In this document: one piece after another, positions 50,303 through 52,461 of the stretch
How positions within the stretch are numbered: the stretch's first letter is position 1
Layout of the letters: each line of letters opens with the position of its first letter
NCBI RefSeq assembly: GCF_019218885.1
Contig: NZ_JAHUWT010000004.1
Coordinates: 248,001 to 312,000 of the forward strand
Length of the DNA: 64,000 nucleotides
From: Bordetella sp. BOR01
Lineage (GTDB): Bacteria; Pseudomonadota; Gammaproteobacteria; Burkholderiales; Burkholderiaceae_B
Direction of reading: 5' to 3'
Translations under genes and position numbers: made by a program
The notes under the pieces: model-generated
The model's database searches: none
Told to the model about the DNA's origin: nothing
Seen by the model: only the letters and a program-made list of their open reading frames with translations

Positions 50303-51376
50303 ATGCAGTTGACGCTGGACCAGATCGCCCTGCAGGCGGGTTCGCAGACTCACCTGTACCCCATGAGCCTGGCCCCCGTGCCCGGCGCCATGACGGTGTT
50401 GCTGGGCGCCACGCAGGCTGGCAAGACCTCGCTGATGCGCATCATGGCGGGCCTGGATCGCCCCACCGAGGGCCGGGTGCTGGCCGATGGCATCGACGTC
50501 ACGGGCGTGCCGGTACGGCGCCGCAACGTGGCGATGGTGTATCAGCAGTTCATCAATTACCCGTCGATGTCGGTGTACGACAACATCGCCTCGCCGCTGA
50601 AGCTGCGCGGCGCCGCCGATATCGCCGTGCGGGTGCAAGCCATGGCAGCCCGCCTGCACATCGAACACCTGCTCAAGCGCTATCCGGCCGAACTGTCCGG
50701 CGGCCAGCAGCAGCGCGTGGCGCTGGCGCGCGCGCTGGCCAAAGAGGCGCCGCTGGTGCTGCTCGATGAGCCCCTGGTCAACCTGGACTACAAGCTGCGC
50801 GAGGAATTGCGCGATGAACTGGCGGGGCTGTTCGCCGACGGCGGCGCGACGGTCGTGTATGCCACCACCGAGCCGGCCGAGGCGCTGCTGCTGGGCGGCC
50901 ACACGGCGGTCATGGATGCTGGCGAACTGCTGCAGTACGGGCCGGCCGCGCAGGTTTTCCACCGGCCGGCCTCGCTGCGCGTGGCGCAGGCGTTCAGCGA
51001 CCCGCCCATGAACCTGTTTGCCGCGCAACGCCAGCCGGGCGGCCTGGTGCTGCCAGGCGGGGTGGCGGCAGCGCGCACGCTACCCGAAGGCGATGGCGCG
51101 GCGGCCATCACCGCGGGCTTGCGGGCTGGCGCGTTCCACCTGGCGCCGGCAGCGGGCCGCTTGGCCTTGCCGGGCACGGCCAAGCTGGCCGAGATATCGG
51201 GGTCGGACACCTATGTACACGCGATGACCATAGCGGGGCTCGTGGTGGCGCAGTTGCCGGGCGTGCACCGCTACCGGCTGGAGGACCCGTTGACCCTGTA
51301 TTTCGATCCAGGCAGCCTGTACGCCTTCGATGCCGGCGGCCGCCTGCTGGCGGCAGGCAGCGCAGGAGCCGCCTGA
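50303..51376 (+). CDS. glpS: GlpS, ATPase of glycerol ABC importer (H-loop His replaced)
   Basis: ABC ATPase of 357 residues, first gene of the glpSTPQ(U)V glycerol importer (not related to E. coli glpT/glpQ). Walker A is GATQAGKTS (35-43), signature ELSGGQQQR (130-138) canonical, Walker B LVLLDE (151-156). The H-loop that should read THD reads TTE (residues 188-190), so the switch His is a Thr at 189. A MalK-like regulatory barrel follows (about 240-350). Strong GGAGGAG ribosome site. The stop overlaps glpT start by one base. Glycerol as substrate is inferred from the complete locus with glpD and glpR. Confidence 0.93.
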   Translation: MQLTLDQIALQAGSQTHLYPMSLAPVPGAMTVLLGATQAGKTSLMRIMAGLDRPTEGRVLADGIDVTGVPVRRRNVAMVYQQFINYPSMSVYDNIASPLKLRGAADIAVRVQAMAARLHIEHLLKRYPAELSGGQQQRVALARALAKEAPLVLLDEPLVNLDYKLREELRDELAGLFADGGATVVYATTEPAEALLLGGHTAVMDAGELLQYGPAAQVFHRPASLRVAQAFSDPPMNLFAAQRQPGGLVLPGGVAAARTLPEGDGAAAITAGLRAGAFHLAPAAGRLALPGTAKLAEISGSDTYVHAMTIAGLVVAQLPGVHRYRLEDPLTLYFDPGSLYAFDAGGRLLAAGSAGAA

Positions 51377-52461
51377 TGGCCGCGATCGAACTCGACCTGG
51401 CCCATTCGTATGTCAGCCATCCGCAATCGGACGACGACTACGCCTTGCTGCCGCTGAGCTTCACCTTCCAGGACGGCGGCGCGTACGCCTTGCTGGGGCC
51501 GTCCGGCTGCGGCAAGACCACCTTGCTCAATTGCATATCGGGCCTGCTGCGCCCGTCGCAAGGCCGCATCCTGTTCGACGGGCGCGATGTCACGGGCCTG
51601 ACGCCGCAGCAGCGCAATATCGCCCAGGTGTTCCAGTTCCCGGTGGTGTACGACACCATGACGGTGGCGCAGAATCTGGCGTTCCCATTGCGCAACCGTG
51701 GCATGCCGCCAGCGCATATCCGCGAACGGGTCGGCCGCATCGCCGAAATGCTGGACATGTCGACGCAGCTGGACCGGCGTGCCAGCGGGCTGAGTGCCGA
51801 CGCCAAGCAGAAGATCTCGCTGGGCCGCGGTCTGGTGCGCAGCGATGTATCGGCCGTGCTGTTCGATGAGCCCCTGACGGTGATCGACCCGCACCTGAAA
51901 TGGCAATTGCGGCGCAAGCTGAAAGAGATCCACCAGGAACTCAAGCTGACGCTGATCTACGTGACGCACGACCAGACCGAAGCCCTGACATTTGCCGAGC
52001 AGGTGGTGGTGATGTCGCGTGGCAAGGCGGTGCAGATCGGCACGCCCGACGATTTGTTCGAGCGGCCGGCGCATACTTTCGTGGGCCATTTCATTGGCTC
52101 GCCCGGCATGAATTTTCTGCCGGCGCAGTGGTGCGATGGCGCGCTGACGGTGGGCTCGCGCCGGCTGTCGGGCGTATCCGGCCAACTTGCCGATACCTTG
52201 GCCGCGGCGGGCCAGGTGCGCCTGGGCGTGCGGCCCGAGTACCTGCAGCCCTGCACGGCAGGCGCGCAAGGAGCCGTGCCGGTGCCCGTCGCGCGTGTAC
52301 AGGACCTGGGCACGTACCTGCTGTTGACCGGCGATTTCGAAGGCACCGTGCTGCGGGCCCGTGCACGCGCCGGCAGCGTCGTCCAGGCTGGCGAAACCGT
52401 GTGGCTGCCGCTGCTCAACCCGCACACCTGTTTTTACCGCAACGAGGAGCGCCTTCCATGA
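51376..52461 (+). CDS. glpT: GlpT, second ATPase of glycerol ABC importer (degenerate signature)
   Basis: ABC ATPase of 361 residues. Walker A GPSGCGKTT (41-49), Walker B AVLFDEPL (160-167) and H-loop YVTHDQTEA with His198 are intact, but the ABC signature reads LSADAKQKIS (139-148) instead of LSGGQ. C-terminal MalK-like domain (about 240-355). Overlaps glpS by one base and glpP by four bases (ATGA). With GlpS it presumably forms a heterodimer; its defect complements that of GlpS. The name follows the Rhizobium glycerol transporter and must not be confused with the glycerol-3-phosphate antiporter GlpT. Confidence 0.93.
   Translation: MAAIELDLAHSYVSHPQSDDDYALLPLSFTFQDGGAYALLGPSGCGKTTLLNCISGLLRPSQGRILFDGRDVTGLTPQQRNIAQVFQFPVVYDTMTVAQNLAFPLRNRGMPPAHIRERVGRIAEMLDMSTQLDRRASGLSADAKQKISLGRGLVRSDVSAVLFDEPLTVIDPHLKWQLRRKLKEIHQELKLTLIYVTHDQTEALTFAEQVVVMSRGKAVQIGTPDDLFERPAHTFVGHFIGSPGMNFLPAQWCDGALTVGSRRLSGVSGQLADTLAAAGQVRLGVRPEYLQPCTAGAQGAVPVPVARVQDLGTYLLLTGDFEGTVLRARARAGSVVQAGETVWLPLLNPHTCFYRNEERLP

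Follow-up and report, generated by a model that had tools for sequence, protein, structure and literature searches.

In the maltose importer MalFGK2, the ATPase subunit MalK is the product of one gene and forms a homodimer with two equal nucleotide sites. The number of ATP molecules spent per substrate, and the need for both sites, have mostly been addressed in such symmetric importers using artificial mutants. In ABC transporters, each composite site combines the Walker A, Walker B, Q-loop, and H-loop of one subunit with the signature of the other (PMC7756269), and the D-loop is reported to be supplied by the signature-donating subunit as well (PMC9867378). A consensus composite site paired with a degenerate one is described for TAP, BmrCD, Pdr5, ABCG5/G8, and CFTR, with an altered signature and, in several of these proteins, an altered H-loop (PMC7756269, PMC4046567, PMC13082197, PMC7013518); TM287/288 is likewise reported as a heterodimeric exporter with a degenerate site. 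In exporters, changes of the catalytic Glu frequently come with deviations in the H-loop (PMC7756269). Replacement of all four degenerate motifs of Pdr5 is reported to abolish its activity (PMC7756269). Among importers, sequence evidence of a degenerate ATP site has been described for the fused ATPases RbsA and NupO (PMC11466899), in which each chain carries two NBDs of what is there termed the type II class. The E. coli importer DppDF has two unequal ATPases encoded by two genes, with the ATP analogue seen only in DppF; both subunits are described as having functional ATP motifs (PMC12136057).

The closest described relative of the locus studied here is the glpSTPQUV operon of Rhizobium leguminosarum VF39 (PMC7912956, citing Ding et al. 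2012). Annotations of glpSTPQUV are also reported in Pseudodesulfovibrio (PMC11505543), and in Cupriavidus metallidurans, deletion of the transporter is reported not to abolish growth on glycerol (PMC7912956). Derepression of this homologous C. metallidurans transporter was also reported to raise resistance to both zinc and cadmium (PMC7912956). In the window, the whole 64,000-nucleotide stretch of Bordetella sp. BOR01 that was analysed, the glycerol locus is divergent, with the following genes:

47704..49311 (-): glpD-like, glycerol-3-phosphate dehydrogenase
49349..50167 (-): glpR-like DeoR regulator, divergent from the operon
50303..51376 (+): glpS, ATPase subunit 1, 357 aa
51376..52461 (+): glpT, ATPase subunit 2, 361 aa
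52458..53339 (+): glpP, permease; NCBIfam sugar/UgpA-type permease matches lie below cut-off, and the name is taken from likeness to the R. johnstonii operon
53332..54144 (+): glpQ, permease
54163..54471 (+): glpU, DUF2160 small membrane protein (PF09928, E 8e-36)
54578..56308 (+): glpV, substrate-binding protein (PF01547)

The stop codon of glpS and the start codon of glpT have one base in common. The S-T-P-Q-DUF2160-V order beside glpR and glpD is that of a GlpSTPQUV glycerol importer, and the operon is predicted to encode one; the assignment of glycerol as substrate rests on the R. leguminosarum work (PMC7912956). The same gene set is found on plasmid pRL9 of R. johnstonii 3841 (glpR-glpD-S-T-P-Q-DUF2160-V-glpK). 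The two layouts differ in that glpD and glpR are divergent here and upstream there, and in that glpK follows glpV there, whereas no glpK was found here among the ORFs identified at 45839-60897 around the operon. Across the 80 loci retained of 595, GlpV is 79-92% identical over the best segment. Six Achromobacter loci, at 91-92% identity for this substrate-binding protein, indicate that the genome probably belongs to a beta-proteobacterium close to Achromobacter. Downstream of the operon, a protein encoded at 56462-57610 (-) matches PF20085 (Protein-glutamine gamma-glutamyltransferase, E 6.7e-39), a family best known from the spore coats of Bacillota, so that its occurrence in a beta-proteobacterium is odd. 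Next to it, at 57680-58273 (-), lies the gene for a small protein that carries an Mrr_cat restriction endonuclease domain (PF04471) and whose N-terminal part is hydrophobic by eye.

The predicted monomer models of GlpS and GlpT match chains of the MalK class over almost their full length, and the Pfam model OB_MalK matches GlpT only. Both proteins are thus predicted to belong to the MalK/UgpC class, with an ABC fold followed by a C-terminal MalK-type domain. They depart from the arrangement seen in MalK, where one ATPase gene provides both canonical sites, in being encoded by two genes with complementary losses. The nucleotide-site motifs are as follows:

50405..50428 (+): GlpS Walker A, GATQAGKT (35-42); Lys41 retained, Ser37 replaced by Thr, Gly38 altered
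50693..50716 (+): GlpS signature, LSGGQQQR (131-138), canonical; 158/158 GlpS
50753..50788 (+): GlpS 151-162, comprising Walker B (Glu156) and the D-loop, which ends in NLD
50867..50869 (+): GlpS Thr189 at the position of the H-loop His; Thr in 153 and Ser in 5 of 158
51496..51519 (+): GlpT Walker A, GPSGCGKT (41-48), canonical
51790..51819 (+): GlpT signature, LSADAKQKIS (139-148), degenerate, with Asp142 at the position of the second signature Gly; SGG in 0/159, Asp in 158/159
51877..51888 (+): GlpT D-loop, TVID (168-171), non-canonical; 159/159
51967..51969 (+): GlpT H-loop His198, canonical; 159/159

In translation, the H-loop of GlpS reads Y186-A-T-T189-E (TTE), and GlpT has FDEPLTVID at 163-171 (Walker B and D-loop) and YVTHD at 195-199 (H-loop). 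The earlier note on this DNA had pointed to the intact signature and Thr189 of GlpS and to His198 and the LSADAKQKIS signature of GlpT, and both translation and a joint alignment bear out these residues and their numbering: the two signatures share columns, and Thr189 and His198 share a single column.

The extent to which this pattern is fixed was followed in 398 genomes, all from the phylum of the window itself. Loci were collected through the substrate-binding protein (80 retained of 595) and from the flanks of DUF2160 matches (from 84 further genomes, together with six second matches), and the resulting 170 loci (L061-L230) yielded 157 GlpS-GlpT pairs, or 158 with the window. Six loci (L080, L089, L106, L108, L122, and L136) had no GlpS or GlpT frame, L095 had GlpT only, and L225-L230 belong to a sister system. 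These sets are redundant, as some loci duplicate one another (e.g., L123 and L160, on contigs of equal length); at less than 80% identity, 76 GlpS and 71 GlpT representatives are retained. The same 85 of the 398 genomes contain GlpS (E <1e-130), GlpT (E <1e-110), and DUF2160, with one copy each at those limits, and DUF2160 was found in none of 14 control genomes. The genes glpS and glpT lie on the same strand in 157/157 pairs, separated by at most 30 nt in 142 of the 143 pairs in which the gap was measurable (the start of GlpT was unclear in the other 14 of 157).

In these sequences, the H-loop position of GlpS is Thr in 153, Ser in 5, and His in none (n = 158). Its Walker A has the form GxTxxGKT, with Ser replaced by Thr in 158/158 and the following Gly replaced in 153/158, and Lys41, Gln81, Asp155, and Glu156 are invariant (158/158). 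In GlpT (n = 159), the first signature Gly is replaced by Ala (147), Val (6), or Pro (6), the second by Asp in 158, and the signature Ser position holds Thr (69), Ala (43), Ser (42), or Gly (5). K144, Q145, and G150 are invariant (159/159), which argues that the signature loop is under selection. The sole GlpT with Ala at the second Gly is that of L223 (LGAADKQKIS). The genome that carries it, G386, also has the weakest GlpS orthologue match among the 85 genomes (8.2e-137). R. johnstonii 3841 has the same pattern, with LSGGQQQR and TTE in GlpS and LTADQKQKIS, TVID, and THD in GlpT. All four states (GlpS signature intact and H-loop Thr or Ser, GlpT H-loop His and no SGG) occur jointly in 158/158 pairs. 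The complementary motif state is therefore a fixed family trait in the sampled genomes. The earlier note had asked whether Thr in GlpS and LSADA in GlpT are fixed together, and they are, when Ser is counted with Thr and any loss of SGG with LSADA; the homologues named there as contrary evidence, a GlpS with His or a GlpT with LSGGQ, are absent from the 158 GlpS and 159 GlpT sequences.

To score departures, 39 canonical rows (33 from the same genome and six sister ATPases) were taken as reference, 29 columns with one residue in at least 85% of these rows were considered, and a departure was called where the canonical residue was found in <10% of rows. Within the nucleotide-site motifs, the fixed departures of GlpS are confined to the residues that act in cis (Walker A S37T and G38; H189T/S), and those of GlpT to the residues that act in trans (signature G141A, G142D, and R146K; D-loop L170I). 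The scored residues on the opposite sides are retained: GlpS shows no departure of the scored kind in its signature or in the Leu and Asp of its D-loop, and GlpT none in its Walker A, Q-loop Gln, Walker B, or H-loop. Position 159 in the GlpS D-loop is Val or Ala, and the reference rows are too variable there for scoring. Partial departures fall on the same sides, with Thr43 of the GlpS Walker A being Ser in 119/158 and the signature Ser of GlpT retained in 42/159. The resulting 3/0/0/4 table has a Fisher p of 0.029, for columns that were picked after the data had been seen. Beyond the nucleotide site, departures are found at F80Y and L85N of GlpS, at L91, P93D, and P136A of GlpT, and, in each of the two proteins, at the Pro that precedes Walker B (S149/T158). 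Given the make-up of composite sites, the scored losses would thus all meet at the site formed by GlpS in cis and GlpT in trans, and none would lie at the other, as in heterodimers with a degenerate site. This partition is sharper than the complementary defects first proposed. Two of the departures on the expected sides, the TVID D-loop of GlpT and the GxTxxGKT Walker A of GlpS, were absent from the earlier note. Loss of the Walker B Glu, which is common but not universal at degenerate sites elsewhere, is not seen in GlpS.

Other NBDs of the same genome do not share these features. A set of 35 NBD stretches, GlpS and GlpT included, was drawn from the loci of the 30 top-ranking matches among 150, and the 33 others all have an SGG signature and an H-loop His. 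A candidate second pair at another place in this genome (C23; L032, L039) was set aside, as these neighbouring MalK-like ATPases are both canonical and provide no further case. Six of the 85 genomes have an additional DUF2160-like match, weaker than the first, that lies within a complete sister operon (L225-L230; e.g., L228:3695-8291). This operon, of the GlpPQUV type, coexists with the true glycerol operon in all six. It encodes a binding protein, two permeases, a small protein, and a single ATPase within the 11 kb retrieved, and this ATPase is canonical in 6/6 (LSGGQRQRVA, SNLD, THD). Canonical motifs are thus found where one gene would have to supply both halves.

In two trees, GlpS and GlpT each form one clade (100/99 and 100/100 in the first; 100/100 each in the second). 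Their deeper placement differs: in the first tree, GlpS joins a long-branched row (91/75) and GlpT joins the UgpC-like and sister-operon rows (85/27), and in the second, the two families meet at a support of 45/0, with a warning for long branches. With support this inconsistent, descent of GlpS and GlpT as sisters from one duplication is not claimed. Because each family is one clade on a long stem, the asymmetry probably predates its spread through the sampled genomes.

From the fixation, partition, co-occurrence, and adjacency described above, together with the predicted folds, we infer that GlpS and GlpT form an importer heterodimer of the MalK/UgpC class with unequal composite sites, in which site 2 hydrolyses ATP and site 1 holds nucleotide with slow or no hydrolysis. 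We give this reading a probability of roughly three in four. Site 2 would consist of the Walker A, Walker B, Q-loop, and H-loop of GlpT and the signature and D-loop of GlpS; all of the near-universal residues tested are present there, and it would be the hydrolysing site. Site 1 would place the GlpS Walker A and B, lacking the switch His, opposite the ADxKQK signature and TVID D-loop of GlpT. It would keep the Lys and the Asp/Glu for Mg-nucleotide and, with neither a switch His nor a signature that works, is predicted to hold nucleotide and to hydrolyse it slowly or never. Asp142 of GlpT stands at what we take to be the position of G551D in CFTR, the second Gly of LSGGQ. This signature Asp of NBD1 is reported to repel the gamma-phosphate (PMC13082197), an effect that Asp142 would reproduce at site 1 from the GlpT side. 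From the GlpS side, Thr189 should impair the site too, given that the H192R variant of MalK is reported to lose ATPase activity and transport (PMC9867378). A transport cycle would need about one hydrolysis, at site 2, with ATP held at site 1. The same composite-site logic, with ATP held at one site and hydrolysed at the other, is described for CFTR (PMC13082197), and much the same cycle has been proposed for BmrCD (PMC4046567).

The retention of Glu156 in GlpS would permit slow hydrolysis at site 1, and with Lys41 equally invariant and GlpT K144, Q145, and G150 fixed, both sites might hydrolyse, Thr or Ser standing in for the switch His and LxADxKQK serving as an alternative working signature, such that the asymmetry would exist in sequence only. 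The H-loop His is not always essential, as yeast Pdr5 with a mutated H-loop is reported to retain ATPase activity (PMC9867378). We nevertheless regard hydrolysis at both sites as unlikely: the changes in all four motifs, Walker A and H-loop as well as signature and D-loop, converge on one site, the MalK variant without ATPase activity is of the same fold class, and the behaviour of the CFTR Asp points the same way. That Asp could instead mean that site 1 holds no ATP and, empty or ADP-bound, acts as a sensor or hinge. The near-invariance of Asp at this position, with Ala in its single exception, fits such a role, and ATP binding is reported to destabilise the corresponding interface in CFTR G551D (PMC13082197). 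The fixed Lys41, Gln81, Asp155, and Glu156 of GlpS argue against it, since the retained Lys41, Asp155, and Glu156 make nucleotide binding at site 1 plausible, and the fixed GlpT Lys two residues past the Asp might offset its charge; an ATP-free site 1 is accordingly somewhat less probable again than hydrolysis at both.

MalK forms homodimers, and GlpS and GlpT might do so separately. A homodimer of either would have no complete site, which favours the heterodimer, and the single copies in the same 85 genomes and the adjacency of the genes also weigh against separate assemblies, which we consider very improbable. Motifs that depart from consensus could also signal relaxed selection on decaying ATPases. 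Decay is the least credible of these alternatives and is ruled out by the fixation of the motifs across the family, which holds in the 76 GlpS and 71 GlpT representatives below 80% identity; most of the substituted residues are themselves conserved.

The inferred GlpS-GlpT heterodimer with one hydrolysing site resembles TAP, BmrCD, and the other proteins with a degenerate site listed above. Unlike those exporters and CFTR, it is of the importer class, has separate ATPase genes, and has not lost the Walker B Glu from its degenerate site. RbsA and NupO have lost the Walker A Lys that GlpS keeps, and the asymmetry of DppDF, unlike that of GlpS/GlpT, does not lie in the sequence. The earlier note had taken the asymmetry for an exporter trait that would be remarkable in an importer with two separate ATPase genes. 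With RbsA and NupO as precedents (PMC11466899), a degenerate site in an importer is not new as such; what looks new is the two-gene case of the MalK/UgpC type (type I). Among the titles and abstract openings listed from open-licence literature, none was found to describe such asymmetry for GlpST or for any MalK-type importer with two ATPase genes, and it was not mentioned in the passages covered on the R. leguminosarum GlpSTPQUV importer.

An intact and an impaired site fixed by evolution, together with the canonical sister operons that have one ATPase in 6/85 genomes, make the questions of ATP count and of the need for both sites directly testable in this family, and the signature Asp of GlpT is a natural bacterial counterpart of a CFTR disease substitution. 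More tentatively, and with the balance of probability tilted against it, a widespread family of type I importers may have given up the symmetric cycle of MalK in favour of one like that of CFTR. In such a cycle, site 1 would stay closed, or sensor-like, over several rounds while one ATP at site 2 gates each import of glycerol, and the natural equivalent of G551D, near-invariant in the family, would represent the functional state of the degenerate site.
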